DNA of 23,802 nucleotides from a virus: the IMG/VR virus record IMGVR_UViG_3300022842_000064, positions 1-23,802 of that record; one strand, given 5' to 3'. How positions within the stretch are numbered: the first letter of the stretch is position 1; each line of letters starts with the position of its first letter. Positions 1 to 17,758 of the stretch are shown piece after piece. The notes below the pieces were generated by a model, which saw nothing but the letters and a program-made list of their open reading frames with translations, did not search any database and had not been told where the DNA came from. A program made the position numbers and the translations under genes.

Positions 1-357
1 CAGGTACTGTGCTGGTGACCAATCGTCATACCCAACCTCGAGCGAAAAAGAGCTTTCGGTGGTGCCAACATCAAGCACGTTGGCTGTCCATGAATCATAC
101 ATGGCCGATTCCAGAAGATCGTCAAACGTCTCCATGGAATACTCAATGCCCAAAGACCCCGAAACAGACTCGCCAACCTTAATCAGGTCACTCACCATGC
201 GGTCGGCGCGAATCTCAGCCGAAACAACAGTGTTGGGGTTTGCAGCGAGGTTTTGCGAAACAAATCGCAGTGCCTGCCAGTCGGCAGAGTTTGATGGTGT
301 TGTGCCGTAAGCAGTTTCGGGCACGTATTTTACGCTTACGCGGTTTGACTCAGACAT
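1..357 (-). CDS. Tail tube protein, N-terminal part (runs off the left edge)
   Basis: An open frame of 119 codons from ATG at 357 to base 1 with no stop, so the gene continues outside the window. An AGGAG ribosome site lies 7 nt upstream of the ATG, and the start overlaps the preceding gene by 8 bp. The product begins MSESNRVSVKYVPETAYGTT and continues with an EIRADRMVSDLIKVGESVSG stretch. Family knowledge: this start and an 'EIR.DR...DL...G' segment are typical of siphovirus tail tube proteins, which polymerise into the inner tube that conducts DNA. Position directly after the neck and tail-completion genes fits. The call rests on the N-terminal pattern and gene order. A related minor tail protein is the main alternative. 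Confidence 0.75.
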   Translation of the reverse strand, partial: MSESNRVSVKYVPETAYGTTPSNSADWQALRFVSQNLAANPNTVVSAEIRADRMVSDLIKVGESVSGSLGIEYSMETFDDLLESAMYDSWTANVLDVGTTESSFSLEVGYDDWSPAQYL

Positions 358-742
358 TGCGTGTTCTCCTGAAAGGAATACTGATGTTCGTTTGGTGCCA
401 CCCGCCATTAATCCCAAGAGAACGCACGGAGGCTGTGTAGGCGACTATACCACTAAAGCGGGTGTGCTGGTAAAGGGCAACAAAGTCATCAGCAAAGCCA
501 TCAGCCGCGCCGGTTGCCGCGCCTTCTGGTACAAATACCTGCCCCACAATAAAGCCCCTGTCCTCGGCGTAGCCTGTGCTGCCGTCCAAGCCTTTTGTTC
601 GCCCTTCGCCAAAAACAAGCGTTAAACGAATCCAAGGCCCGTCTGGCGGAGTAAAGGACAAGTTTTCAAACGCGATCGGAGTGGCCGTCCAGCCCAGCCG
701 CGCACGCTCCTGCACCGCGATTTTCAGTTGCTTAAAACTCAT
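350..742 (-). CDS. Tail completion / tail terminator-like protein
   Basis: A 130-residue protein whose ATG at 742 overlaps the end of the preceding gene by 11 bp and whose stop overlaps the tail tube start by 8 bp. The sequence starts MSFKQLKIAVQERARLGW and has a beta-rich middle (WIRLTLVFGEG, GFIVGQVFVPEG) followed by a helix with DDFVALYQHTRF. Size, fold pattern and position between an HK97 gp10-like gene and the tail tube match the small tail terminator/completion proteins (DUF4128-like) that cap the tail tube at the head-proximal end. The role is inferred mainly from gene order and secondary-structure feel. I see no diagnostic motif, so the exact family is uncertain. Confidence 0.6.
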   Translation of the reverse strand: MSFKQLKIAVQERARLGWTATPIAFENLSFTPPDGPWIRLTLVFGEGRTKGLDGSTGYAEDRGFIVGQVFVPEGAATGAADGFADDFVALYQHTRFSGIVAYTASVRSLGINGGWHQTNISIPFRRTRNV

Positions 743-1112
743 TCAACACCCTTTCAATGGACAGCTGAACAAAAAATGCTGGGGCTTGCTGTGACCACCC
801 TTCGTTCAAGCGAACAATGTACGGGAGATTGTTGCTTAGGTACAGGGTAGGAAAGTCAGGCATGTTTTCTGGGTCGAACACTCCCATGGCGCGTTCCGAC
901 AGCTGGCCCAACGGTATGGGGCCGCTTACTGAATAGGACGGCGAGGAAACGGAGGGAATCCAGTTGCTCTGTGCACGCCCCGTATCAACCGGCGTGTTCG
1001 CCACAAGCTCACGGTCAATGGCCAGCGCCGCAGTGACCACCGTGGTTTTGTGGTCTTTTTTCACCGCCTCCACAAACTTGGTGGGGGCTACTGTCCAGCG
1101 AGATACGCTCAT
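732..1112 (-). CDS. HK97 gp10-like neck / tail-completion protein
   Basis: A 126-residue protein. I place the start at ATG 1112, which forms an ATGA overlap with the upstream stop at 1109-1111; a longer frame reaching 1175 would overlap that gene by 67 bp. The protein begins MSVSRWTVAPTKFVEAVKKD. It contains the phrase NTPVDTGRAQSNW near residues 40-52, the hallmark 'TPVDTGRARANW' motif of HK97 gp10-like proteins that sit at the head-tail junction. The C-terminus has NNLPYIVRLNEGWSQQAPA, also usual for the family (late 'Y...lE.G.s.qaP..m'). It lies in a tight four-gene connector cassette. I am confident of the family, less so of whether it acts in neck or tail completion. Confidence 0.8.
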   Translation of the reverse strand: MSVSRWTVAPTKFVEAVKKDHKTTVVTAALAIDRELVANTPVDTGRAQSNWIPSVSSPSYSVSGPIPLGQLSERAMGVFDPENMPDFPTLYLSNNLPYIVRLNEGWSQQAPAFFVQLSIERVLNEF

Positions 1113-1453
1113 CGGCGCAGCTGCACCGTCAGCGTGGCGTCTGCTGGGTCGCGGGAAATGTTCTTGATCTGCCACACCTGATCGTAAATACGCAGGGCAC
1201 CACTCTCTTGCAAATCGATGTCCAGCGAGGCCAGCTCAAAGATAGCTTTCAGGTCGCCGGATTTTATCACGCTGCCATCTATTTCGCGGGTACTGTAGCT
1301 TACGGCTACACATCGCACAGTGACCTCCGGCTGCACGGACAATACGTTGGTTGCAGGGTCAAAGATTCCGGCCGGCCGGTAGTAGGCCACATTCAACAGG
1401 TCGCCCAGTGAGCGAAACGCCAGAGCAACGTTATCCTGAATCAGCTTCTTCAT
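1109..1453 (-). CDS. Putative head-tail connector protein
   Basis: A 114-residue protein, ATG at 1453 in an ATGA overlap with the preceding gene and TGA overlapping the next start. It begins MKKLIQDNVALAFRSLGDL and is then mostly beta strands with short turns (VTVRCVAVSY, ALRIYDQVWQIKNI, ATLTVQLRR). Small all-beta proteins of 100-120 residues at this place, just before the HK97 gp10-like gene, are usually head closure or stopper proteins that seal the portal after packaging. I recognise no specific motif, so the role is inferred from size and order. Confidence 0.6.
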   Translation of the reverse strand: MKKLIQDNVALAFRSLGDLLNVAYYRPAGIFDPATNVLSVQPEVTVRCVAVSYSTREIDGSVIKSGDLKAIFELASLDIDLQESGALRIYDQVWQIKNISRDPADATLTVQLRR

Positions 1454-1950
1454 CGCCGAACTACCCTCACAACAGAGTCGCGGCCCGTATTAATCGTGCC
1501 GTACTGGTTCACCATCAGCTTCACGCCGGTAGGCATCGCGCCTTTGCGATCGCCTTTGTTGAAGTTTAGTGCGATGGGGCCAACACGCAATGACGTAAGC
1601 CCCGTAGCAGGGTCACTCGACAGGTTTTCTTTCAGCAACTCGGCCGCGTATTCCGCCGTGGCTACCTGCAGGAAGTCTGGGATTTCTGTGTCTGTGAAAT
1701 AAGCGTCCCGGTTATAAACCTTGACCTCTTTTCTGGGCCAGCTCAGCGGCTGGTCGTTCGCCGATGCGATTCCGTACCACGTCACATAGCGGTCTAGCAG
1801 CCGTGTGGCCATGAGCAGCGCACGCTTTTGATTCGTCTCGCCCGCCTCATCCCAAGCTGGGACATCGAGCCGCGTGCCTAGAATTACTGTGGCATCACCT
1901 TGAGAAACGTAGCAGTTAAAACCTTCTAACGTAGGGTCTGGCTGTAGCAT
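1450..1950 (-). CDS. DnaT-like ssDNA-binding-domain protein, probable head-tail adaptor
   Basis: A 166-residue protein starting at ATG 1950 with GAGGA 8 nt upstream. It is the first gene after the terminator that follows the major capsid gene. The middle has KRALLMATRLLDRYVTWYGI followed by a tryptophan-containing SWPRKEV and later AEYAAELLKENL. The pattern 'ALi.At.yld....w.G.....QaL.WPR' is typical of phage proteins annotated as DnaT-like ssDNA-binding, which structurally act as head-completion adaptors attached to the portal. The position right after the capsid and before the closure protein supports the adaptor role. The DnaT label is a family name and does not imply replication function here. 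Confidence 0.7.
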   Translation of the reverse strand: MLQPDPTLEGFNCYVSQGDATVILGTRLDVPAWDEAGETNQKRALLMATRLLDRYVTWYGIASANDQPLSWPRKEVKVYNRDAYFTDTEIPDFLQVATAEYAAELLKENLSSDPATGLTSLRVGPIALNFNKGDRKGAMPTGVKLMVNQYGTINTGRDSVVRVVRR

Positions 1951-1966
1951 TGCCGTATTCCTCGGA

Positions 1967-1993
1967 TATAAAAATGGGGGCCGAAGCCCCCAT
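1967..1993 (-). terminator. Rho-independent terminator after the major capsid gene
   Basis: On the minus strand an 8-bp perfect stem (positions 1993-1986 with 1981-1974, four or more G:C pairs in a row) closes a UUCG tetraloop and is followed by a T-rich run ending TTTTTATA. It begins about 20 bp after the capsid stop at 2014 and ends 17 bp before the next start. It should cut readthrough into the connector genes, keeping capsid mRNA high and connector mRNA lower. Confidence 0.9.
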
Positions 1994-2013
1994 CTTACGT
2001 TACACGCTTATGC

Positions 2014-2994
2014 TTAGTCGAACAGTCCGCGAGCACCGGGGCCAGCTTTGATACCGTTCGCAGCAGCCATAACGCTGTCCCAGTTGGTAGACAGGGCCAG
2101 AGCCGCGTCATCTGGGTTAGCGCCACCGTTTGTAACGTCCCACTTCATGCCACGCACTTTCATGTTGTAGGCATACTCACCTTGGATACGCATGATCAGG
2201 TTTTCCTTACCCGTAACCATGTCGCTCACAATCTCTTGCTGCTCGGATTCGGCAATGGTGCAAGCGCCGCGAGTCAGGCCGAGAATGTTGTACTGGTCAG
2301 GCGTACCAGAAGTGATCAGCGGAGAGCTGTCCACAACGATAACCGGACGGTTCAGTGTTGCCACTGTGCCGGTGTAGATGGTCACGCCCGCAACTTCAAA
2401 CACCTTGTCCGCAACCGCTTGGCGCATCAGGTCGAAGTACGACTTGGAGTGCATCATCCACGCAACAACGTTGCGCTCGCCGTCACCCATCTTGGACAGA
2501 ATGTCGATCAGTCCAGTGTGAGTAGGCGTACCCGCAGTGCCATCGTGCAGTGCACCAGAGCCAAGAGCCGTGATAGCTGCAACCAGAACACGTGCCGCAG
2601 TGTCCGCCATATCAACAGCAGAGGCTTTACCCACCTGCTCGCCCAGCAAGAAAGACATTTCCTGTGGGTCACTGGCAATTTTGCGGAAAGAGTCGAGCGT
2701 GTTAGCAACAGGCCCGATCTTACGGTTCACTTTCACGCCGATGAACTCATCCTGCGTCATCGCCGAGTCAGTAGCGTCAGCTACGGACGTGACGTTTCGG
2801 CGGGTGATCAGGTTGCTGATGTTCTTAACGAACGATTCCTTCTCATAGTCGCCCTTCAAGCGGTTAGGCTCAATGGTGATCGCGCCCTGAGAGGCAGCGT
2901 TAAAAATGTTGGAGTTTTGCTCCAACGCCTCGGAGTAACCACCAAAAAATTCTTCTTGGTAGATTACGAAGTTTGCCTTTGTGCCTACTGCCAT
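2014..2994 (-). CDS. Major capsid protein, HK97 fold
   Basis: A 326-residue protein starting at ATG 2994 with AGAGGAA upstream. It follows the scaffold gene by 16 bp, the standard scaffold-capsid pairing. Visible parts are an N-terminal arm (MAVGTKANFVIYQEEFFGGY), an E-loop region, a central helix-rich part (AARVLVAAITALG), WMMHSKSYFDLMRQ near residue 180 (the 'w.mhp.....L' phrase common in these capsids), and GRPVIVVDSSPL-type strand residues (NRPVIVVDSSPL). It lacks an obvious N-terminal delta domain or protease gene, consistent with use of a separate scaffold. Many copies form the icosahedral shell. A strong terminator follows. Confidence 0.88.
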   Translation of the reverse strand: MAVGTKANFVIYQEEFFGGYSEALEQNSNIFNAASQGAITIEPNRLKGDYEKESFVKNISNLITRRNVTSVADATDSAMTQDEFIGVKVNRKIGPVANTLDSFRKIASDPQEMSFLLGEQVGKASAVDMADTAARVLVAAITALGSGALHDGTAGTPTHTGLIDILSKMGDGERNVVAWMMHSKSYFDLMRQAVADKVFEVAGVTIYTGTVATLNRPVIVVDSSPLITSGTPDQYNILGLTRGACTIAESEQQEIVSDMVTGKENLIMRIQGEYAYNMKVRGMKWDVTNGGANPDDAALALSTNWDSVMAAANGIKAGPGARGLFD

Positions 2995-3010
2995 GGGGAA
3001 GTTCCTCTAT

Positions 3011-3784
3011 TTAACTTGCTTTTTGTGCGGGGGCACTTGGCAAGGCCAAATACGCATCGCGTCCATGTTCACCGATATATTTTGCCTTATCCGCTGCAGT
3101 GCGGAAATCAGCTTTGGTACGAACGGTGCCACTTCCCGTGTTTCCGCCACCAGCGTTGTCGGCTCCCCCTCCACCGCTGGGTTTGAATAAATGTGATGCT
3201 GTAGCCGACAGCTTCTTACCAAACTCCCGCATTGTCAAGGCTTCTACACCACTCTCACCGTAGACAATCTCGTTGTCTACCATGGGAACGACCTTATCTT
3301 CATGCAAACGGAACACAGAACGGCCCCGAGCAATGAAGTCATTCATCGGTTCGCCTTCCTGCACGCCCAACTCGCCGCCTACCTTGCGCAACTCATCTGT
3401 GATCAGCAGTGAAGCAAGCCGCTGATCTTTTTCACTCAGCTTTTGCTCGACTTCGCCGAACTTTGTTTCCCACGACTGGTTGTTCTTTTGGATGCGGGCT
3501 TGGACGAGTTCTTCAATTTTGGTGGGGTCTGCTTTTTCAAGGTCGGCCTCGCGTGACAGCAGGTTCTGATACTTATCTGGGTCTACGTCTTTAAACGTGC
3601 CCAGCTGCTTTTTCAGGTCTTTTACGTTCGTGCGCTCAGTGTCCAGCGCCTTCTTCAAGCCGCCAACGTCCGGCAGCCCTTCTACCTGCAAAGTAAACCC
3701 GCTCTTGTCCTCTTTCTCAGAGTAGAGTGCGTGCTGTTCTTCTGGCAGACCTTCAAGTGTTTCTAGTTCAAGCTTCAAACCCAT
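3011..3784 (-). CDS. Capsid scaffold protein
   Basis: A 257-residue protein. Of two candidate starts I choose ATG 3784 because a GGGAGG site lies 8 nt upstream and the product then begins MGLKLELETLEGLPEEQHAL. A charged coiled-coil region follows (GGLKKALDTERTNVKDLKKQ, EADLEKADPTKIEEL, KFGEVEQKLSEKDQRL). A phrase LITDELRKVGGELGV is typical of SPP1/GP20-like scaffolds. The C-terminus is Gly-rich and then helical. Scaffolds guide assembly of the capsid from inside and leave or are degraded before packaging. Placement directly upstream of the capsid gene supports the assignment. Confidence 0.85.
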   Translation of the reverse strand: MGLKLELETLEGLPEEQHALYSEKEDKSGFTLQVEGLPDVGGLKKALDTERTNVKDLKKQLGTFKDVDPDKYQNLLSREADLEKADPTKIEELVQARIQKNNQSWETKFGEVEQKLSEKDQRLASLLITDELRKVGGELGVQEGEPMNDFIARGRSVFRLHEDKVVPMVDNEIVYGESGVEALTMREFGKKLSATASHLFKPSGGGGADNAGGGNTGSGTVRTKADFRTAADKAKYIGEHGRDAYLALPSAPAQKAS

Positions 3785-3800
3785 GGCTATATCCTCCCGA

Positions 3801-3823
3801 TATAAAACCAGCATCACGCTGGT
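3801..3823 (-). terminator. Possible weak terminator or attenuator before the scaffold gene
   Basis: On the minus strand a 6-bp perfect stem (3823-3818 with 3812-3807) has a 5-nt loop and is followed by TTTTATAT. It lies in the 45-bp gap between the 106-residue gene and the scaffold start, and the scaffold ribosome site follows right after. It could reduce transcription from upstream or be a start-proximal RNA structure. The stem is short, so termination is uncertain. Confidence 0.4.
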
Positions 3824-3829
3824 GCCGTT

Positions 3830-4150
3830 TTACAAACTGTCGACCATTATCTTAACGGTCTGGTCTTGGTTTTCACCATTGGTGGCCGTGATGCGGTTTG
3901 TCAGGAAATAGGCCATGCCTTCAACCCCACCCGTCACAAACACCTTGGTTCTGGTTAAATCATCGTTTATTTCAGGTGACTCGGTGACCAAAAAAGGCGG
4001 CACCGTTGGGCCTTGCACTATCCATGAGGACGTAACAACGTCTGCGCCCTGCAGCCAGCCGTCACCGCCCTCAACATTAAGCCCGTTGCTGTCCCCCCAA
4101 TTAACACCGACCGCTGTGCGGCCGTCAGGGTCATGTGGGTACTTGTCCAT
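3830..4150 (-). CDS. Hypothetical structural protein
   Basis: A 106-residue protein coupled to the previous gene by a TAATG overlap (ATG at 4150). It begins MDKYPHDPDGRTAVGVNWGD and alternates short strands with polar turns, ending TNGENQDQTVKIMVDSL. The middle (KVFVTGGVEGMAYFLTNRIT) reads like an Ig-like or fibronectin-like beta sandwich. Similar small beta proteins occur next to capsid genes in other phages as decoration or fibre-associated proteins. I do not recognise a named family. Its place between the fibre block and the scaffold suggests a virion role. Confidence 0.6.
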   Translation of the reverse strand: MDKYPHDPDGRTAVGVNWGDSNGLNVEGGDGWLQGADVVTSSWIVQGPTVPPFLVTESPEINDDLTRTKVFVTGGVEGMAYFLTNRITATNGENQDQTVKIMVDSL

Positions 4151-4509
4151 TATGCAGATGCTTCGTACGTCAGCGAATCCACTTCAACCGTATCGCCAGC
4201 ACCAATGGCCAAACTGGTGATGTTGATGTCAGCGCCGCTAGTGCCAACAGTGCCCGTAATCATCACCGTGCCAGCAGACCGTTTCAACACGAATTTTGAA
4301 ATGGTGCCACCCACCGCGTTGGTGTCTGCAGCGATAGCGTTTGCCGTAGCAGCACCAGCAGCAGCATCACCAAAAGCCGGTGAGCCGAACGCGGGTTCTG
4401 CGACTTTAGCACTGCCGGTAGTCTGAAATTCGACCTTTCCGCCGTTGAGTTGGTCTACAACGTAGTCAGCCAGCCCGTTACGGACATCGGCTTCATGGGT
4501 TATTGCCAT
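4150..4509 (-). CDS. Hypothetical phage structural protein (MAITHEA-type)
   Basis: A 119-residue protein, ATG at 4509 with GAGG 8 nt upstream. It overlaps the previous gene by 17 bp. It starts MAITHEADVRNGLADYVVDQ, has an Ala/Gly/Thr-rich middle (AFGDAAAGAATANAIAADTN) and ends in beta strands with ITSLAIGAGDTVEVDSLTY. Proteins with this start and the 'aiGAGDTV.vsSLTY' ending recur in many phages near head or fibre genes; their function is not known to me. The composition is that of an exposed virion beta protein, possibly a decoration protein. Confidence 0.7.
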   Translation of the reverse strand: MAITHEADVRNGLADYVVDQLNGGKVEFQTTGSAKVAEPAFGSPAFGDAAAGAATANAIAADTNAVGGTISKFVLKRSAGTVMITGTVGTSGADINITSLAIGAGDTVEVDSLTYEASA

Positions 4510-4666
4510 TAGATTCGCCTCGCTCTTTGATCAGGTTTAGCGCTTCGGCTTCCTGCTCTTTGGTGGAAACGTCCGAGGAAAACTCAAACGTGCTCTTAAT
4601 ATTACCATGCTTGTCCCGCACAGTGGCTTTGCCGGAAACTCTCCCAACAGACGCTGCAGCTTTCAT
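4493..4666 (-). CDS. Small hypothetical protein
   Basis: A 57-residue protein. I choose ATG 4666 over the GTG at 4675 because AGAGG sits 8 nt upstream of the ATG. It begins MKAAASVGRVSGKATVRDKH and has one beta-hairpin-like segment (GKATVRDKHGNIKSTFEF) followed by a charged helix (STKEQEAEALNLIKERGE). It overlaps the next gene by 17 bp and lies 72 bp after the repeat protein. I do not recognise a family. The spacing and ribosome site support it as a real gene. Confidence 0.6.
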   Translation of the reverse strand: MKAAASVGRVSGKATVRDKHGNIKSTFEFSSDVSTKEQEAEALNLIKERGESNGNNP

Positions 4667-4738
4667 AGGATACACCTCTACTGTCTAGTGGCGTCAAATA
4701 AAACACGTAGCCCGCCCAACCGCAAGAATTTTGTGCCG

Positions 4739-7579
4739 CTACCTGCCAACAAAAGTATCCTTGCCGCTCGTTGGAACACGCACCGCTGGGCCTTTTTCTC
4801 CGGTCGAAGTCACGAAATTCGCGTCCGGCACGAATGCCTCAATGCCTCGCTGGTCGGCACTGGCTGTACCTGAACCAGCCTGCACACTGCTCTCGTTGTT
4901 CGGCACGCGGAACTCACCCGCAGAAACAACAGCAACCAGCTTGGCCCTTTCTGCCCTTAGCGCACCGGTTGCCGTGCGAACCACTCTAACCGTGGCGTTT
5001 ACCGTAGATCGGCTGGCCACCAGTTCCGCTGCAGTGACTATTGCTCTGCGGGACTGGGCGGATATGGCGGCTGGCGCAGCCTGCAGTGCACCTGTTGCAC
5101 GCACCACACGCCGGGCCGTACCAGTCAAAGCCGCCTGAGTCGCGGCAATGTCGCCAGCAACAACAAGAACCAGCTTCACGCTGCCAGAGACTTTAGCTCT
5201 GGCCGCCTGCAGTGCACCGGTGGCTTTTACCGAACGCGATGTGGTGGCGGAAACAGTAGCCTGCCCCGCACGCAACTCACCAGAAGCCCTGATCGCAGAG
5301 AAACGTCTTGCGATACCGGACACCGTGGCCGTGGCCGCCTGCAGTGTGCCGCTGGCATGGGCAATACGAATGGCAGAACCAGTGACCGCCGCTTGGCCCG
5401 CCGCCAACTGACCAACAGCCTTACGCTTAACACGTGCCGCACCAGCAACGCTGGCCGCCTGCGCCTGCAGCGAACCAAAGCTTGCGCCTGTGCCGAAGAA
5501 AGTTGCTTCACCGGCAACGGTAGAAGTCTGCGCCTGCAGCTCACCTTGTGCTGTGAGTTTTCGGGTCGTTGCGCCGGACACCGCCGCTGGCTGTGCTTGC
5601 AGTGAACCAGTGGCCGTTATTGTGCGCGAGGCCGTGCCGGACACCGCAGATGTTTGCGCCGCCAGATCGCCTGTCGCCTTGACCTTGCGCGTGGCGGAGC
5701 CAACTACCTGCGATCGACTTGCGCGTAATGCGCCGGACACCGTGCCAACAGCGTAGCTCTGACCCGCACCAGTAACAGCAGCATCCTGCGCTGACAATAC
5801 GCCGGTGGACTTGACCTTTCGAGTGGCCGAGCCGGTGACTTGAGCAACGGCCGCCGCCAACTGCCCAGAAGACTCATGGACAGAATATTCCCGTCCACTA
5901 CCAGAAACAGCAGCTCGCTGCGCCTGCAGTGCACCGGTTGCTTTGACCTTGCGCGTGGCCGAGCCAGCGACTTGGGCCGTTCCTGCTTGCAGCGCGGCAC
6001 TGGCCTGACCTATAGAGAACGCATCGCCCGCGCCACTAACTTCAGCACGTTGGGCCTGCAGTGAACCGGTTGCCTTGACCTTGCGAGTGGCCGCGCCGGT
6101 GACTTCAGCTCGCTGCGCCGCTAGTGTGCCAGCGGCTTCCGATACGGTGTAGTTGTCACCCGCGCCGGTGACTTCAGCGCGTTGGGCAGCCAGTGTGCCG
6201 GCTGCCTTGACCTTGCGCGTAGCAGCACCGGTGACTTCAGCACGTTGGGCCGCTAGTACACCACCAGCCTCAACAAGGGCTTGTGTATCAGCAACGCCCG
6301 AAACAGCAGCACGTTGAGCAGCCAGTACGCCGGTTGCCGTCTTGGTAGAAACGCCGTACGTGTTGCTGTCGAAATCTACTGGAAGAAAGCCGCTCCAAGC
6401 CTCAGCACCGTTGTTCATCGTGCCGTTAAAAGAGCTGCTGTTTATACCCGACCGCGTGTTGTTGTTGACACCAACACCAACACCGTTAGCGCCTGTCCAG
6501 TCGCCTTCGACGTCTTGTGTGCCCAGCGTTGAGCCGTCAGTGGTTTCACCATAACCCAGCGTGATGAATTCTTTGGTGTCGGAAGCAAAAACGTAAATTT
6601 TTACACGGCCTATTCCACTTGGCCTTATACACCAATAAATATCAACGGCCTGCCCCGCAAACAGAGTGCTGTCTACTGAGGCAAACGCTGTGTCGTTGTT
6701 AGCTGCGGTGTTGTTGCCCTGACCGGCTGCGCCTACCAGCAAACCAGCGCCGTTAAAGGCGAGGCCCATACCGTCACCACCGGCACCTGATTCAATGAGA
6801 AGACCTACGGGTGACGCTGGAACATCAACGTCTAGGAATGCAAACGTGACGCTTTCGGAGTCGTTAATGATAGTGCCGTCAGAGAACACAGAACCGGTGT
6901 GCCCTTGTGGCTCCGCCCAATCTGCCGTTGGGTAGCCGTCAAATGGTGTGCTGGACAACTCAAGTGTGTCTGCCGCCCCGCTAACCGAAGCAACAGCTGC
7001 CGCCAGCACGCCAGAGGCTTTTACCTTGCGAGTGGCCGCGCCGGTGACCGTGGCCGAGACCGCCTGAAGCGAGCCGCTGGCAGTAACAACAACGCTTACA
7101 GTAAAAGCACTTGATACAACAACGTTGCTGGCATCAACCCCGTCATACCAAACTGCAGCCAGCTTGTAGCTGCCAGAGATGAGTCCGTTAATGGCATCGC
7201 CAGTGAAAGGGTCAGTCGTTACGTCTGGTGCAGGGTCGTTGCCGAAAACGCCGCTTGCTACAGTACCCTCTATGATTTCGGTGTCGGTCGGGTCGGCTTG
7301 GCCACTAGGATAAATCGCCCAGTAAATAGTGGGTTCGTAAAGCACAACGAACGTATCACTCACAACAACGTTGCTAGTCGCGCTCCCATCGTCCCAGACC
7401 ACGGCTGTCTTGTAGCTGACGCCCTGCGCCAACCCGGTAAGAGGGACGGTTGCTGTGTCCGTTACAGTAGGCGATGCCTGACTGAAATGAATGCCATTGG
7501 GGACAGCCTCAGTGATGACCTGAGTATCTGTAGGGTCAGCCTGCCCCGAAGGATACGTGGCTACGTAAAGAGTGCCCAT
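4739..7579 (-). CDS. Large tandem-repeat fibre-like protein with FN3-like and lectin-like domains
   Basis: A 946-residue protein starting at ATG 7579 in a TAATG overlap with the preceding gene. Residues 1-162 hold two related beta domains, each with YPSGQADPTDT and a later SNVVVS. Residues 167-207 are two repeat units; 208-410 form an inserted Gly/Asn-rich beta domain resembling LamG/SPRY-type lectin folds. Residues 415-888 hold 22 more repeats of the form TG-x-LQAQRA-x-VSG-x-ATRKVKA. The C-terminal 58 residues are unique. Hallmark leucines are spaced 23 and 21 residues in strict alternation from L419 to L639, then mostly 21. A repetitive beta-helical or rod-like virion fibre is likely. Its location in the head gene cluster suggests capsid attachment; host binding is an inference. 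Confidence 0.8.
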   Translation of the reverse strand: MGTLYVATYPSGQADPTDTQVITEAVPNGIHFSQASPTVTDTATVPLTGLAQGVSYKTAVVWDDGSATSNVVVSDTFVVLYEPTIYWAIYPSGQADPTDTEIIEGTVASGVFGNDPAPDVTTDPFTGDAINGLISGSYKLAAVWYDGVDASNVVVSSAFTVSVVVTASGSLQAVSATVTGAATRKVKASGVLAAAVASVSGAADTLELSSTPFDGYPTADWAEPQGHTGSVFSDGTIINDSESVTFAFLDVDVPASPVGLLIESGAGGDGMGLAFNGAGLLVGAAGQGNNTAANNDTAFASVDSTLFAGQAVDIYWCIRPSGIGRVKIYVFASDTKEFITLGYGETTDGSTLGTQDVEGDWTGANGVGVGVNNNTRSGINSSSFNGTMNNGAEAWSGFLPVDFDSNTYGVSTKTATGVLAAQRAAVSGVADTQALVEAGGVLAAQRAEVTGAATRKVKAAGTLAAQRAEVTGAGDNYTVSEAAGTLAAQRAEVTGAATRKVKATGSLQAQRAEVSGAGDAFSIGQASAALQAGTAQVAGSATRKVKATGALQAQRAAVSGSGREYSVHESSGQLAAAVAQVTGSATRKVKSTGVLSAQDAAVTGAGQSYAVGTVSGALRASRSQVVGSATRKVKATGDLAAQTSAVSGTASRTITATGSLQAQPAAVSGATTRKLTAQGELQAQTSTVAGEATFFGTGASFGSLQAQAASVAGAARVKRKAVGQLAAGQAAVTGSAIRIAHASGTLQAATATVSGIARRFSAIRASGELRAGQATVSATTSRSVKATGALQAARAKVSGSVKLVLVVAGDIAATQAALTGTARRVVRATGALQAAPAAISAQSRRAIVTAAELVASRSTVNATVRVVRTATGALRAERAKLVAVVSAGEFRVPNNESSVQAGSGTASADQRGIEAFVPDANFVTSTGEKGPAVRVPTSGKDTFVGR
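4916..6337 (-). repeat. 22 tandem coding repeats of 63 or 69 bp
   Basis: Corresponds to residues 415-888 of the 946-residue protein; two further units lie at 6959-7081 (residues 167-207). The DNA is also repetitive: near-identical blocks encoding ATRKVKA occur around 5675, 5941, 6071, 6203 and 7018. The first ten intervals alternate 69 and 63 bp, pointing to duplication of a 132-bp double unit, whereas later units are mainly 63 bp and more diverged. Such repeats can expand or contract by recombination. Confidence 0.9.
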
Positions 7580-8298
7580 TAGAAGGTCACCGAAACATCA
7601 AGGCTTGCGGAGTTTGCAGTAATACCGCTCACCGTGGGCGCGGAGAGTGTTGGTGTGGTTATTACAGGGCTATCAGGTGCAGAAGACCCATCCGTACCAA
7701 ACCCCACGTTATCAAATCCAGTAGGCCAGTCGCTGCGAGAGCTTTGGAACCCCATTTTGCCCGCTGTTTGTATGCGGTCTACGCTAGTATCAACAGATGT
7801 TTGCGTCCACGAGAAAGGTTCTGCTGTACCAACAAGCCACTCTTTCCATTCTAGCGTTACCGTAGTTGTACCGCTGACCCTTGCACGGACATTAAAAAAC
7901 CCCGGCTGGCTAATGGGCACAACCATCCCATAATAGTCAAACCTGAAATTGGAGGCAGGTATGACTCGACGAATTTCAAGGGCTGACTGAAGGCGGTTAA
8001 AGTAATAATAAGATGAAAAATCTCCCGCCACCCTCAAAGCTAGACCACTATTACTGCTAGAGTTTGATGATTTGAATAAGCACCTAATTTCAGAGTCTAC
8101 AGAGGCAGGAACAGCAACAGGTACGGAGATGCCGTGCGTATCTGTTACTGTCTTAAGCCTGTAAACCCTAGAACCTACTGCCGCAGAATTATCATCGACA
8201 ATTATCTCATCCGCTGCGCCATCAGAGGTTTCTGTGAAGAACAGCGGGTCGATAGCACCTATTGGCTGATCTTCAAAATCGTAGTAAAACTGAGCCAC
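7579..8298 (-). CDS. Beta-sandwich virion protein, paralogue of the next upstream gene
   Basis: A 239-residue protein starting at ATG 8298 with AGGGGTAGGG just upstream, 13 bp after the preceding gene. It begins MAQFYYDFEDQPIGAIDP, which matches the start of its upstream neighbour (MAQYFTDFNNNPLGGID). The middle (residues about 20-200) has strand patterns of a concanavalin/LamG-like jelly roll, including YYYFNRLQSALEIRR and VTLEWKEW. A GSSAPDSPV linker precedes a short C-terminal beta tail. I take it to be a virion surface or fibre protein, possibly carbohydrate binding. No catalytic motif is visible. Confidence 0.65.
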   Translation of the reverse strand: MAQFYYDFEDQPIGAIDPLFFTETSDGAADEIIVDDNSAAVGSRVYRLKTVTDTHGISVPVAVPASVDSEIRCLFKSSNSSSNSGLALRVAGDFSSYYYFNRLQSALEIRRVIPASNFRFDYYGMVVPISQPGFFNVRARVSGTTTVTLEWKEWLVGTAEPFSWTQTSVDTSVDRIQTAGKMGFQSSRSDWPTGFDNVGFGTDGSSAPDSPVITTPTLSAPTVSGITANSASLDVSVTF

Positions 8299-8311
8299 TA
8301 AACCCTACCCC

Positions 8312-9682
8312 TTAAACAGTGATCGTGACGTTGGGAACCGCAGAAAACTCTGTGATGCTTGACGCGAAAACAGTGGAAAGGGTTGGCACAAGCGACCCGG
8401 CGACCTCGGTAAAGTTGACCATAGTTACAATCCAACTTCTCGTACTAACTATACTGAACTCTATGTATTGCGTATCTGGGGCAAAGTAGACACCGGAGTA
8501 GACCTGTAAACGGTTACTGTCTGTATTTGGGTGTTTGTCTGTGTTAACTAAAAAGTATTCAGCGTCAGATGCACTCTGCATACTGAAAACAAATTGATTT
8601 CCTCCCGCGTATGCGTTCACAGCGAACACAATAGACAATGCTCTATTAGCCGTAGTTTGTGTTAATGAGGTCGTTGTGGCTGTACCCGTCGAAGACACCG
8701 TATCAGCAAACGTAAAATCCACAGCTGTCTTGTAGGCGAGCACCAACGCTTCCATACGTGCTGCTGCAGACTGGGTAAGTGTCAATGATGTTCCCGCCTC
8801 GCTACCGTCAGCAATCTTCCACATGACACCACTACGCTGAGAGGCAATACCGTATATAACATCGCCGCTTTTTGTGTATCCAGCAGGGGGATTGATTGTG
8901 GCCCTTGCGTAGTATGGGACTAATATCAAGTCGCCCGCCTGTATTCTTGGGTCTATAGATACCGTTAACGATGTTCCTGAAGTCACAAAAGACGTTTTTG
9001 TCTCTGCGCAGCGCAGCTCCAAGAAGTCTATCGGTACAGGTGCCGTTGGGGCAGAACTTGCTCCTGTGCCAACAGCGTATTCAATGTAATTATGTACAGT
9101 GCCGGTAAAAGCGTTCATACAGATGCCGACAGCCCCTGCTTCGGGTATATCTGTATCTGTAGCAGTCAGTCCCCAGCCAGCTGGCTCAGGGTCTACATCA
9201 GCCCACGCCTTTACCGAGAGCGCGGAGCCTATAACAGAAAACCGAACGCACAAATCACCCGTAGTGGGCAACGCAGCAAGAGCTAGGCTAGTAATTACGG
9301 TCTCTGTGCCGTTTACATATTTTGCTATTTCAAGAACATTGTCCCCCACACCAGCATAGTAAAAATGGGTGTCGCTGTCTGTGTTGGACGAGTTTTTTGC
9401 CTTATCCGCCCGTGCCGCCAAGAAAAAAGAAGATGGCACATCACCAGAAACCAAACGAATTTTGGCGTACAGCTCAACGTCTGCTGTATCGGGTAAATTA
9501 TCATACGTGGCCAATTTACGTGAGCTGTTAATTGCTACTGCTAAGTAGCGTGTAGCGCCGTCTTGGATTATGTTCCAGCCAACTATCGAGTACCAAACGC
9601 GCGGCGTCCATTCGGCTATGGCGGGGTAGACATCTATCCCGCCAAGAGGATTGTTATTGAAGTCTGTGAAATACTGGGCCAC
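8312..9682 (-). CDS. Two-domain beta-rich virion protein (lectin-like)
   Basis: A 456-residue protein starting at ATG 9682 with GGGGAG upstream, 3 bp after the preceding stop. Residues 1-205 form a LamG-like beta domain starting MAQYFTDFNNNPLGGID and ending near a GTGASSAPTAPV linker, the same plan as the 239-residue neighbour. Residues 215-450 form a second beta domain with DLILVPYYARATINPPAGYT, WKIADGSEAGTSLTL and ALVLAYKTAVDF, a pattern common in phage receptor-binding or head-fibre proteins. No enzyme motif is visible. Surface display and glycan binding are inferences from fold type and neighbours. Confidence 0.65.
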   Translation of the reverse strand: MAQYFTDFNNNPLGGIDVYPAIAEWTPRVWYSIVGWNIIQDGATRYLAVAINSSRKLATYDNLPDTADVELYAKIRLVSGDVPSSFFLAARADKAKNSSNTDSDTHFYYAGVGDNVLEIAKYVNGTETVITSLALAALPTTGDLCVRFSVIGSALSVKAWADVDPEPAGWGLTATDTDIPEAGAVGICMNAFTGTVHNYIEYAVGTGASSAPTAPVPIDFLELRCAETKTSFVTSGTSLTVSIDPRIQAGDLILVPYYARATINPPAGYTKSGDVIYGIASQRSGVMWKIADGSEAGTSLTLTQSAAARMEALVLAYKTAVDFTFADTVSSTGTATTTSLTQTTANRALSIVFAVNAYAGGNQFVFSMQSASDAEYFLVNTDKHPNTDSNRLQVYSGVYFAPDTQYIEFSIVSTRSWIVTMVNFTEVAGSLVPTLSTVFASSITEFSAVPNVTITV

Positions 9683-11278: not shown

Positions 11279-12274
11279 CTAAACGCGAGCCTCAAGTTCC
11301 TCTATTGTGAGCGGACGACCTGATTGGTCTACCATGTCACGCATCGATAACTTGCCTTCTTTCCAGATCGCATGCTTCCGCTTTCCCAGCACTTCGATCT
11401 GTTCTGCTTCGGGTAGGGACTTGAACCACTGATCGTAGCTTATGTCACCGGCAACAGGGCCGTCTTTGCTGGACTGCATGCCAACAAAGGTCTTATCGAT
11501 TTCCAATATCGGCACCAGCATGGAACGGCAATTCCAGTGCCATGGCGGTGGGCCGGGGAACTTGTCTGTTGTGCCGTCCATAGGCGAGCCGTCTACTTCC
11601 CAGTGCATGCCTGACCGAGCGCGGCAGAGGGCAGAGGTGCGCAAGTCCAGTGTGGCCAACACCCGATACCCCTTAATCAAATCCTTGTGCGCCTCGTACA
11701 TTTCAAAGCGTGCGGCGTTGGCCACGGACATAACAGAGGTGCGAATCTGGGCCTCAGCGTGTCGGCGTAGCTGGCCGCTGGCCTCGCGCCACTCGCGCAC
11801 CATGGTGCCGTTGTCCTTACCAGTCAGCACGCCAGCACGAACGATGTCAGCAAACCGGCTGTAAGTAGCCCGCCTCTGCCTTCCCCACCACTCAGCGGCC
11901 GGCGCACCCATGACCAAAGCCCTGCGCATTACGGACTTTGAAAACGCTGCGGACACCGTGTTGGTGGCGATCGCCGTGCCCATCACCGCATTGATCTGGC
12001 CAGCAGCCACCGTGGCTTCAAGCTGTATCAAGCGGAAATTATCGCGCAAAGCCCGCTTCTCAGCAGCACTCAACGCTTTGTTGGTTTCCGACTCAGCCAG
12101 CGCAAGCAGCACTTTGAATCGCGTGTTGTCGCTGCGCTGGGAAATCATGCCAACCAGAATCGTTTCGAGGCGCACCAGTTCTTTCAAGGTTTCGCCCCGC
12201 ACACCCTCTCCGAAGCGCTGCAGGTCAATCGTATGGCGTATGACCGCTCGCGCTATTTGGTCGTCTCTGGTCAT
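11279..12274 (-). CDS. Minor head protein, SPP1 gp7 / Mu gpF-like
   Basis: A 331-residue protein coupled to the portal gene by an ATGA overlap (ATG 12274). The N-terminal two-thirds is helical. Residues about 180-255 carry the family signature: NAARFEMYEAHKD, then VLATLDLRTSALCRARSG and the metal-ligand-like PPPWHWNCRSML. This 'D.RTs..Cr..G...P..H.nCRs' pattern defines the phage head morphogenesis domain (PF04233). In SPP1 and Mu such proteins bind the portal, enter the procapsid with it and affect DNA exit. The position straight after the portal is the usual one. Confidence 0.88.
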   Translation of the reverse strand: MTRDDQIARAVIRHTIDLQRFGEGVRGETLKELVRLETILVGMISQRSDNTRFKVLLALAESETNKALSAAEKRALRDNFRLIQLEATVAAGQINAVMGTAIATNTVSAAFSKSVMRRALVMGAPAAEWWGRQRRATYSRFADIVRAGVLTGKDNGTMVREWREASGQLRRHAEAQIRTSVMSVANAARFEMYEAHKDLIKGYRVLATLDLRTSALCRARSGMHWEVDGSPMDGTTDKFPGPPPWHWNCRSMLVPILEIDKTFVGMQSSKDGPVAGDISYDQWFKSLPEAEQIEVLGKRKHAIWKEGKLSMRDMVDQSGRPLTIEELEARV

Positions 12275-13677
12275 TCATCTGACCCATCGATCGGCGGCAC
12301 ACTGGTCGGCATCTGCATGGCGATCTTGTCCAGCTCATCTTCCACCGTCCGCCCGTCAGGCACCAGCTCGCCTTGCTGCAGGTTGTAGAACAGGGTTTCG
12401 TAGCTGATTGCGCCGCTCATCCATGCGCTTACCAGCGCCGTCATAGCAGTAGGCTCAAGGTGCGTATCGATGAAGTCTGTGTTGAAGTCTGCTGCTATGT
12501 CGGGTTCTTGGACGCCCTGCCAGTTTAACCAGTACGTGACCAATGTGGTCAGCGACTCACCGGCAGCAATGGCCAGCGAAGACAGCGTGCTGGTTTCTGC
12601 TGATTGGCCTATGCGTGCTGTTTCAGCGGTTTCCACTTGTCGGCGCTGAGCACGCAGCATGCGCGAACCCATGGCGGCCATTTGCTCCTGCTTTTCGGCC
12701 AACGCGACCTGCAGTGAACCAAGGCCAGCCCCGGTAAACTCCAAGAATCCAGCGCGCGCACTGGGGTTGGACGATACCCAAGCCACCTGTGAGCCTACTT
12801 TCAGCTCTTGGTCAGTGTCGAAGCCAGCGACCCACGCAGTCGGCAAACCAGTGAAGTGCCGCCCGTGCTCCAAGTCAGCCGAGGTGTGGTAATGCGACTC
12901 GTTGATGACGGCAATGGATGACAGCACCGGCTCATGAACAGTGGGGTCATTGCCGTTGGGGGTGAAGAAAACGAACGGAATGTAGTCCAGCGGTTCGCCT
13001 GTGTTTAGGGGGACGGGGCTTTCGGTCAGGTTGTACACCAGCTCATTGCGGCCGTTGATCGTGCCCTCAAAAACCGACTGCACATACACGCCGTCCACAA
13101 GCTCAAGAACGCGGTATCGCGTGCCTTCTTCAAAGCCGAAACGCTCAAGGTCACGAACATAAGTCTCCCGCAAAACAATCAGCGTCAGCCTGTACTTGTC
13201 GTTTAAGCGCTCAAACCGCCAGTTGATGATGTCCTCCGCCTTGTACTTCACGAAGTAGATGCCGCCGCCGTCAGAAGCACGCGCCCGCTCAACAAGCACA
13301 CCACAGCGAGACACTGAAACCAGTTCTTCCATCACAGAACGCACGAACGCCGCCATGGAATAGCCGTCCAATGTCACCTGCTTAAAGCTGTCCAGCTGTT
13401 CTTCAGTAAGACCCGTAAACTGCACCGGCTTGCGCATGATAGCGCCCAGCAATGCTTGGTGCGTGCGCTTTGTCGCTTCAAAGTAAATGGCGCGGCGCTT
13501 ATACTTTTCGTAGTCCTGCTTGGCTTGGTCGTCACTTTCATCGCCGAGCATTGGCAGAAACACCGTGCCCTTGCTCTTAATAGCCCGCGACCCAGCAAGG
13601 TGCGTTCGCATCCACTCCCACACAACCTTGTAATCTTTGTATTGGGGGTGCTCTGTCGTCACCGAGTTGTCGGTCAT
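12271..13677 (-). CDS. Portal protein, DUF4055 type
   Basis: A 468-residue protein starting at ATG 13677 with GAGG 8 nt upstream, 10 bp after the terminase. Characteristic parts are YEKYKRRAIYFEATKRTHQA and IMRKPVQF near residues 55-90, SRCGVLVERARASDGGGIYF near 145, and NPSARAGFLEFTGAGLGSLQ followed by a long helix MAAMGSRMLRAQRR near 305-345. These match the DUF4055 phage portal family. Twelve copies would form the channel at one capsid vertex through which TerL pumps DNA. The gene order small terminase, large terminase, portal, minor head protein is canonical. Confidence 0.85.
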   Translation of the reverse strand: MTDNSVTTEHPQYKDYKVVWEWMRTHLAGSRAIKSKGTVFLPMLGDESDDQAKQDYEKYKRRAIYFEATKRTHQALLGAIMRKPVQFTGLTEEQLDSFKQVTLDGYSMAAFVRSVMEELVSVSRCGVLVERARASDGGGIYFVKYKAEDIINWRFERLNDKYRLTLIVLRETYVRDLERFGFEEGTRYRVLELVDGVYVQSVFEGTINGRNELVYNLTESPVPLNTGEPLDYIPFVFFTPNGNDPTVHEPVLSSIAVINESHYHTSADLEHGRHFTGLPTAWVAGFDTDQELKVGSQVAWVSSNPSARAGFLEFTGAGLGSLQVALAEKQEQMAAMGSRMLRAQRRQVETAETARIGQSAETSTLSSLAIAAGESLTTLVTYWLNWQGVQEPDIAADFNTDFIDTHLEPTAMTALVSAWMSGAISYETLFYNLQQGELVPDGRTVEDELDKIAMQMPTSVPPIDGSDE

Positions 13678-15923: not shown

Positions 15924-17135
15924 TCAAAATCCCCGTTCTGTCCCAATATCCATTGCGGCTGTCGCGCGGTTAGTGACGCCAACGAACCGTACTCCATGTC
16001 TTTTACAGATTTCCTGCCCAAGGGTCAAGCCCCGCTCGCCACCATACACCAACAGTGTCTCTGGCTTCAACAAGTCTAGCCCAACACCAATGCTCGCACG
16101 GAAGTCATCTTCGTCCACGCCCTTGCCGCCTTCGCCGGACTTCAACGTACGCCCGCCAACCGTCTGAATCTGGCAGGACAGGGTGGGGGCACGCTCTGGA
16201 ATCGGTGCACAGCAGCCCTCAACGCTATCAAGGTTCCACTCACAGAGGCTTGGGATTACGGGGAGTCCGGCCATCTGCCAGTACAGAGCACAGTAAAACG
16301 ATCGGTACACGGCCCACAGGTTTTTTGGCAGCGGCCAGCCGTCCATGCGCGTGAAGTCAGGCATGGTCAGCGCGTATGGCCCAGCGTTAAGGAATCGCTG
16401 AGTGTTGTCCCGCAGCTTCGACCACACACGCTCAAACCGCACATCGTCAATGTAAAACGAGATTACGGTGTCTGCCGGGTTTAGTCCCTTGGTCGATTCT
16501 CGCCCAAACAGGTGGTAGTGCATCTGGCCTTGGCCCAGCGGTGGTGTGCGGTGCCGATTCATCCACACCACCATTTCCTCTGGTATGTGGGGAATGTTCT
16601 TGGATAGGAGGCGGGGCAGCTGGTACGGCCCAACGCAGTCGCTGGCGTGCAAAGCAAGGGACTCTTTCAGCTCACGCATGCCAAACGACTCAGTGCCCGC
16701 ATCCTCAAACTCGTCCGGCGCGTCTTCCTCCGCCTCAAAATTAAGCAGCTTATCCAGCTCTTTCTCGCTGAATCCCATGTCTGAAACGTCAATGCTTTTG
16801 CTGTCCAAGTCCCGCAAAATCTCGGCCACAGCATCGAAATCAGAGCCTGTCATAGCGTTGGTTTGGTTGTCAGACAGGAGAAACTTACACTGGGCCTCAT
16901 CGCTCAAACCAGCGACTGTGATAACAGGACATTCCACATCGCCCCGCTTCTTGTGAGCCATCCACCGGCCGTGGCCAGCAAGTATGACACCCTGCTCGTT
17001 CACAACAATGGGCTGTATTGACCCCTGCGTGTTGTCCATCGACTTAGCAATACGATCGATCTGCTTGTCAGTATGGATTTTGGCGTTCTTGGGATGGGGT
17101 TTCAGGGTGATCGGGTCACGCATTTCAATTTGCAT
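15924..17135 (-). CDS. ParB-like N-terminal domain fused to a DUF4417-like domain
   Basis: A 403-residue protein starting at ATG 17135 with GGAGG 7 nt upstream. Residues 1-95 form a ParB/sulfiredoxin-fold domain: LKPHPKNAKIHTDKQIDRIA, QPIVVNEQGVILAGHGRWMA (GHGR box at 54-57) and FLLSDNQTNA. Residues about 96-170 form an acidic linker. Residues about 222-390 resemble DUF4417: YALTMPDFTRMDGWPLPKN, a Tyr/Trp-rich YRSFYCALYWQMAGLPVIP and a final VRFVGVTNRAT. There is no HTH of the chromosomal ParB type, so specific parS binding by this protein is not expected. Phage ParB-fold proteins are often NTPases, nucleases or partners of DNA-modifying enzymes; the role here is unknown. It is the first gene after a strong promoter. 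Confidence 0.78.
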   Translation of the reverse strand: MQIEMRDPITLKPHPKNAKIHTDKQIDRIAKSMDNTQGSIQPIVVNEQGVILAGHGRWMAHKKRGDVECPVITVAGLSDEAQCKFLLSDNQTNAMTGSDFDAVAEILRDLDSKSIDVSDMGFSEKELDKLLNFEAEEDAPDEFEDAGTESFGMRELKESLALHASDCVGPYQLPRLLSKNIPHIPEEMVVWMNRHRTPPLGQGQMHYHLFGRESTKGLNPADTVISFYIDDVRFERVWSKLRDNTQRFLNAGPYALTMPDFTRMDGWPLPKNLWAVYRSFYCALYWQMAGLPVIPSLCEWNLDSVEGCCAPIPERAPTLSCQIQTVGGRTLKSGEGGKGVDEDDFRASIGVGLDLLKPETLLVYGGERGLTLGQEICKRHGVRFVGVTNRATAAMDIGTERGF

Positions 17136-17344: not shown

Positions 17345-17758
17345 CCGCAACAATTTTCTTCCACTAGCGACCACAGCCAAGAAAACTTCCCAATTGACCG
17401 AGCCTTCCCAGTGGTGGCGGGAGAGCGCATATAACTCATCAAACGGCACATGCCCCAGCAGCTCAAACTGATCTTCAAACAACAGGAACGTGCTGTCGAT
17501 GCGCCAGAACAAAAAAGTCTGCGGCCACGTGGTCAGGAACCGGCGTTGCTCAATCGTGAAGTGCGGCAGCTGTTGCACCCTCCCCGCCTTAGCCTCCTTG
17601 GGAGAAAATTTCAGCTCCACCCACGCGGTTTTGTCATTATGGGTTTTGATTGCCACATCAGGGATGCCGGGGGAGAATTTATCCTCAAATCGCTGATAAA
17701 CCACGTCCCTATCATTAAACACCCTGCGCATACTGCCCCAAAGCCCGCTCTCGCTCAC
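17342..17758 (-). CDS. PD-(D/E)XK family nuclease
   Basis: A 138-residue protein. I choose GTG 17758, which overlaps the polymerase stop as GTGA and has GAGGG 7 nt upstream; a TTG at 17776 is weaker. The active-site pattern is visible: an upstream acidic RFEDKF, then SPGIPDVAIK (catalytic Asp) and AWVELKFSPK (E-x-K), followed by HFTIEQRRFL, typical of small phage PD-(D/E)XK nucleases related to VRR-NUC and resolvase-like enzymes. It probably processes branched or damaged DNA during replication or recombination, given that it directly follows the polymerase. The exact substrate cannot be read from sequence. Confidence 0.75.
   Translation of the reverse strand: MSESGLWGSMRRVFNDRDVVYQRFEDKFSPGIPDVAIKTHNDKTAWVELKFSPKEAKAGRVQQLPHFTIEQRRFLTTWPQTFLFWRIDSTFLLFEDQFELLGHVPFDELYALSRHHWEGSVNWEVFLAVVASGRKLLR

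Follow-up and report, generated by a model that had tools for sequence, protein, structure and literature searches.

Appendage cassettes of the kind described here are already known from the gp34-36 module of Alishewanella phage LSH1 (2026) and from fibre I of the Ralstonia podophage GP4 (PDB 8jou). LSH1 is a siphovirus with SPP1-like head proteins, and its report (PMC13243795) describes three adjacent virion genes. One encodes a payload that includes a poorly predicted and perhaps repetitive domain, another a fibril protein like that of GP4 and the third an immunoglobulin (Ig)-fold protein. In the authors' working model, the three act jointly in the order gp36, gp35, gp34; the same paper cites the placement of the GP4 fibre parts on the tail. 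In Shigella phage Sf14, gp30 and gp31 form neck whiskers, in which, according to PMC11821841, a gp31 dimer stands on a gp30 dimer and is held to the neck by the adapter gp37. Here, we analyzed a virus record of 23,802 bases, IMG/VR IMGVR_UViG_3300022842_000064 (positions 1 to 23,802, hereafter the window), in which a block of six minus-strand open reading frames (ORFs) of 456, 239, 946, 60, 119 and 106 residues runs from 9682 down to 3830, between the genes of a minor head protein and of a scaffold. The original prediction, made from the letters alone, had placed six same-strand ORFs at exactly this site, as the coordinates bear out, and had read their products as capsid decorations or head fibres. 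In our analysis, the block is very probably an appendage cassette that works in the manner of GP4 fibre I and the LSH1 module.

The 106-residue Ig-like protein (3830..4150; all window features given here are on the minus strand) carries the clearest family signal. It scores 45.3 bits against PF23148 (Gp77), the family of the GP4 fibre-tail adaptor, above the Pfam gathering cut-off of 27, and a profile of seven Gp77 relatives, with the window sequence as its first row and all seven proteins matching PF23148 individually, reaches 8jou_D, the adaptor chain of the GP4 structure, at E 1.2e-14; a row for MS2 coat protein in the same profile search (E 0.033) is not significant. By these profile matches the protein is a member of the Gp77 family, the sole protein of the block to be assigned to a family on this basis. 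Gp77 genes stand next to other virion genes elsewhere as well. In BcepIL02, the Gp77 gene lies directly after another virion protein gene and adjoins tail-fibre genes, behind the capsid gene, and in DSL-LC06 it lies directly before the terminase (TerL) and portal genes, which are followed by scaffold and major capsid protein (MCP) genes, with a repetitive-looking protein of 448 residues encoded ahead of it.

The 119-residue protein p119 (4150..4509) is predicted to combine a helix with beta structure. Its AlphaFold2 (AF2) model, built with 30 relatives, has a predicted local distance difference test score (pLDDT) of 94.4 and a predicted template modelling score of 0.84, and the sequence matches phrog_3758, a virion structural protein family, at E 2.9e-10. 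The best solved fold match is chain A of 9rkv, a tail-fibre entry of Agrobacterium phage 7-7-1 (Foldseek E 2.2e-5; Z 13.4, root mean square deviation (rmsd) 1.9, 117 aligned residues, 26% identity), which, from PMC12796354, we infer to be the garland dimer protein gp014. The model also superposes on 9mt4_K, a connector protein of Bas63 (Z 9.8), and on 9c39_K, a chain of the Sf14 neck that we looked up as gp31 (Z 9.6, rmsd 2.4, 102 aligned residues, 16% identity). Weaker fold matches are the HFTV1 tail (Z 6.7), an arm segment of phi812 (6.6) and A511 gp105 (6.2). A further hit of p119, PDB 44nx_B (titled 'Structural protein', E 3e-4), does not recur in the listed results of the fold searches. 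We propose that p119 is a linker or whisker-like protein that would dimerize, its dimers connecting the Gp77-type adaptor to the payloads.

Three payload candidates precede p119 in the direction of transcription. The N-terminus of the 456-residue protein (8312..9682; about residues 1-210) models in AF2 as a domain resembling ConA and the carbohydrate-binding module CBM66; from residue 219 onward, pLDDT falls below 50 and the model is unreliable. Among its best fold matches are mouse galactocerebrosidase (Z 18.8), CBM66 (18.2), TM4 gp23 (9n6a; 18.0) and Douge gp20 (8zdp; 17.8); the last two share the lectin-like fold, and their entry titles name them as a receptor-binding domain and a central fibre, respectively. 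The 239-residue protein (7579..8298) aligns with the lectin-like domain of the 456-residue protein and with four viral relatives at 24-28% identity, and ends in a short C-terminal tail. Glycan binding, suspected from the start, is thus probable for the modelled N-terminal domain, the fold alone being no proof of sugar binding. The beta-rich character that had been claimed for the three large proteins is borne out, as far as reliable models reach, for about the first 210 residues of the 456-residue protein, and the model of p119 is beta-rich as well. Relatives in IMG/VR share the MAQYF-like start, and in four loci (L048, L021, L114 and L115) they are encoded only a few ORFs upstream of ORFs that look like terminases by inspection of the sequence; the portal calls in the last three were made in the same way. 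The G+C content of the two lectin genes (7579-9682) is 0.48, below the 0.56 and 0.59 of the flanking genes, which fits a recent acquisition.

The 946-residue protein (4739..7579) is mainly a chain of 22-24 repeats of 21-23 residues, with two N-terminal units of about 80 residues that look similar by eye, a unit of roughly 200 residues inserted between repeats and a C-terminal tail; a hidden Markov model (HMM) of the repeat, built from 22 of the protein's own units, scores 24 domains in it. We take this protein to be a putative repeat shaft. When it was compared with phage records by tblastn (E up to 1e-5), only Sphingopyxis phage VSN-002 was returned. There, an unannotated ORF of 488 residues (L031:5956-7422) follows a p119 relative and consists of a Gly-rich part and then window-like repeats. 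Vibrio phage K354 is another cultured phage with a p119 relative.

The block stands in addition to a tail-tip and fibre set that the same virus encodes in the usual place. Contig 3300022856_000061, 99.98% identical to window 1-4516, continues past the window into tail genes for a tail-tube protein, a tape measure of 1151 residues and a J-like Phage-tail_3 protein (1062 residues), and further on encodes a 369-residue protein with no family match and a Gly-rich fibre protein (phrog_863, E 1.8e-25; PF21722); a CBM5/12 protein follows the tail-fibre genes (L025:5454-6104). Outside the copies shared with the window, no p119 or Gp77 relatives were found in the first 12.5 kb and at 9.9-18.3 kb of this tail contig. 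The idea of ordinary tail fibres that have simply moved is therefore less likely, as the original prediction had anticipated.

The position of p119 among head genes recurs in other viruses. Relatives of p119 are encoded in 319 IMG/VR stretches, of which the best 80 were kept; two are contigs of this virus, 58 of the remaining 78 are non-redundant, and 32 of these 58, in which p119 is flanked by over 3 kb on either side, formed the sample for neighbourhood counts. We scanned up to three ORFs of at least 100 residues on each side, each cut at 500 residues (92 upstream, 94 downstream). Among the first 25 of 128 PHROG families matched upstream, the commonest are portal, minor head and terminase families, and among the first 25 of 111 downstream they are tail-fibre and tail families; Pfam portal families account for 16 matches upstream (among the 25 of 30 families listed) versus one downstream, counts of matches that correspond to at most as many proteins. 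Repeat proteins accompany p119 too. We defined a periodic ORF as one on the same strand, of at least 150 residues, with a period of 19-25 or 40-47 residues at z above 8 relative to shuffles; among same-strand ORFs of that length, 29 of 203 within 3 kb of p119 are periodic versus 7 of 231 further away (Fisher p 1.9e-5, an indicative value, as neighbouring ORFs are not independent), and 17 of the 32 loci contain at least one. Many other loci also have small ORFs ahead of p119, some of which resemble the 60-residue ORF of the block by eye.

Taken together, these findings lead us to favour, by a little over even odds, an extra adhesin appendage docked at the neck, with a mode of action akin to that of GP4 fibre I or the gp34-36 module of LSH1. 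The fibre or adhesin nature of the block, already suspected in the original prediction, is supported by the Gp77 family match and from the p119 fold matches to neck and tail-fibre proteins. The 106-residue protein would dock on the virion, p119 would then join it to the payloads, and the payloads, lectin-like domains (456 and 239 residues) together with the long repeat shaft, would attach reversibly to host-surface glycans, ahead of receptor engagement by the separate tail tip. Given an appendage cassette, the neck is the docking site to which we lean somewhat, for three reasons. Proteins that share the fold of the linker include a neck whisker of Sf14 and a chain of the Bas63 connector entry; portal genes recur beside p119 genes; and the block sits within the run of genes from portal to capsid, as does the gene of Sf14 gp31: in Sf14, portal gp29 and capsid gp34 bracket the whisker genes, and p119 occupies the same portal-capsid interval. 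By analogy, the Sf14 whisker genes and the recurrent head-cluster position suggest the neck, without amounting to proof. Sf14 and Bas63 have contractile tails, however, and the passages on the Sf14 whiskers describe no lectin payload.

Several observations weigh against this reading. GP4 wears its Gp77 adaptor on the tail, by the Pfam name and the PDB title, and 9rkv, the source of the best p119 match, is a tail-fibre entry from the baseplate or tail-fibre region. GodonK and Faith1 carry their Gp77 gene downstream of the tape measure, in a group of minor-tail genes, and Vasanti has it next to a minor-tail gene; Gp77 genes thus occur on both the head side and the tail side, and the location of a gene does not by itself tell where on the virion its product sits. 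The Gp77 assignment of the 106-residue protein depends on profiles: the sequence alone reaches 8jou_D at E 0.38 only, and the BcepIL02 Gp77 protein has no match in the window (phmmer, E up to 5). PF23148 was found in one of 50 p119 contigs by genome search, with L042 also matching when its protein is scanned, so that the adaptor is no fixed partner of p119. The relation of p119 to GP4 fibre I is weak by fold (8jou_a, Z 5.5, rmsd 3.6, 87 aligned residues), and matches of Z 5.5-6.7, including those to HFTV1, phi812 and A511, are within the range that a merely common arrangement can give. By sequence, that relation is absent: the p119 profile compares with the profile of the GP4 fibre I-type fibril group at an hhalign probability of 0.4% (E 0.13), whereas the fibril-group profile itself, as a control, matches 8jou_a at E 6.8e-9, and p119 was accordingly rejected as a sequence relative of this type and is not assigned to the GP4 fibril family. 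Likewise, Sf14 gp30, gp31 and gp37 have no phmmer match (E up to 5) in the window or the tail contig, the positive controls having worked. Finally, in the sampled relatives the repeat gene usually lies downstream of p119 (26 of 29 cases), whereas in the window the payloads come first; payload-like genes do come first wherever a Gp77 gene follows p119 (the window, L064 and L042).

These tail-side Gp77 genes, and the tail sites of GP4 and 9rkv, make a tail site possible, and side fibres on the distal tail or baseplate, encoded out of the usual order, are the strongest alternative, one to which we would give about one chance in four. The tail-fibre set encoded after the tape measure, the recurrence of portal families upstream of p119 relatives and the DSL-LC06 arrangement, with its Gp77 gene directly before TerL and portal, all speak against it. 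Faith1 gene 23 (L124:9361-9747), a neighbour of the Gp77 gene downstream of the tape measure, carries the annotation 'head protein', a name that may be misleading, as its alignment group matches the GP4 fibril 8jou_a.

Fibres or decorations on the capsid surface, binding capsomers and holding the phage in mucus or on glycans, were the preferred reading of the original prediction. They would suit the position between the MuF-like and scaffold genes, the lectin-like domain and the filing of phrog_3758 under head and packaging. The significant structural matches of the 106-residue protein and p119 are nevertheless to neck, tail-fibre or fibre-adaptor chains, so that the proteins expected to anchor the appendage point to neck or tail sites, and phmmer, a comparison of sequences only, finds no match in the window for Sf14 gp33 or the Hoc-like gp20; we therefore regard capsid attachment as improbable. 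That the block encodes secreted or cell-surface lectins made during infection is very improbable indeed, given that solved virion structures contain proteins related by family or fold to the adaptor and to p119, and that the genes are set, partly overlapping, among head genes.

Compared with the described systems, the neck-docked appendage that we favour would be a variation on a known kind. The payload and the Gp77-type protein of the LSH1-type architecture are present in the window, with a linker whose relation to the GP4 fibril is the weak one described above. The LSH1 module follows the lysis genes, whereas the window block lies inside the head cluster and has three payload ORFs; the window Ig-like protein reaches the Pfam Gp77 cut-off, and LSH1 was compared through its published description. 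GP4 shares the Gp77 adaptor family and has a small fibril protein that matches p119 weakly by fold, but it is a podovirus. As far as the literature searched shows, the placement between MuF and scaffold, the joining of lectin payloads and a repeat payload within a single block, the resemblance in fold between the p119 family and neck whiskers and the association with repeat shafts in uncultured phages are new. Tentatively, and with somewhat less than even confidence, we suggest that p119-type dimeric linkers, Ig-type adaptors that can be exchanged and payloads of lectin, beta-helix or Gly-rich type that can replace one another, many of them on shafts of 21-23-residue repeats, make up a widespread and largely unannotated plug-in neck appendage, carried by phages with different head types beside portal or terminase genes, through which host-surface binding would evolve independently of the tail tip. 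In this proposal, the payloads would dock through a short terminal strand motif of the x-D/E-N-R-x-x-x-V type. By eye, the motif is found at the free end of several payloads encoded beside Gp77-type genes; it is weak or absent in L047, L036 and L061 and, in the window, only loosely similar, in the 946-residue protein.

Gene order often guides the reading of phage genes, so that fibre-like genes near the portal look odd or are called tail fibres. If the cassette builds neck appendages, it would provide a second host-binding system that is missed when host range is predicted from tail-tip proteins; p119 together with Gp77 would offer a handle with which to look for such structures in uncultured phages, and the unplaced LSH1 module would be one case of a recurrent architecture.

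The phage genes identified in the window run, on the minus strand, from TerL and portal through the MuF-like head protein and small ORFs to the block, and on to scaffold, the Gp13-type capsid protein, head closure and the first part of a tail-tube gene. The portal gene (12271..13677) matches phrog_145 (E 2.9e-114) and DUF4055, the MuF-like minor head protein gene (11279..12274) matches phrog_241 (E 1e-75) and PF04233, the scaffold gene (3011..3817) matches phrog_206 (E 7e-32) and the Gp13-like MCP gene (2014..2994) matches PF20036 (E 3e-90). Extra ORFs of 221, 99 and 123 residues, absent from the original prediction, separate MuF from the block. In six annotated MCP relatives that were inspected, out of 594 matching records, between zero and two genes, each of at most 201 residues, lie between portal/MuF and scaffold (in one of them, phiHSIC, the MuF and scaffold roles were assigned by position); against this small sample, the block is unusual. 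Five other loci (L010, L012, L013, L014 and L015) encode a capsid protein 53-54% identical, directly followed by a run of glycosyltransferase- and methyltransferase-like genes, and L012 has a KdsA-like gene between portal-like and scaffold-like genes, these names being given by the look of the sequences.

The tight coupling claimed for the block holds at three of its junctions. Stop and start overlap as TAATG at the 239/946 and 119/106 junctions, and the 60- and 119-residue ORFs overlap by 17 nucleotides; because of these overlaps, the three pairs are likely to be translationally coupled. The 456/239 and 946/60 pairs are separated by gaps of 13 and 63 nucleotides, respectively. A programmed frameshift at 239/946 was considered and set aside, no obvious slippery run being seen by eye at the TAATG overlap, and termination-reinitiation appears the simpler reading. 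The 60-residue ORF (4493..4675; 60 residues from GTG or 57 from ATG) may encode an accessory protein and has no PHROG match.

Misassembly was rejected because IMG/VR contig 3300005913_000520 (L008), from another assembly, matches window 111-6482 at 99.92% and spans the junction between fibre-like genes and scaffold. In sample 3300022856, the same virus is split over two contigs, 99.98% and 99.95% identical, which end at window 4516 and 4551. The stretch between the two ends (4517-4550) lies inside the 60-residue ORF, between the 946-residue ORF and p119, and could point to variation between strains or to an exchange of payload genes.

Two further proteins of the window are of note. Just upstream of the terminase genes, one protein (15924-17135) combines a weak ParB_N match with DUF4417. 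A family A DNA polymerase (17755-20409; PF00476 in two stretches) carries an insert of roughly 250 residues that, by its motif, may be an intein.

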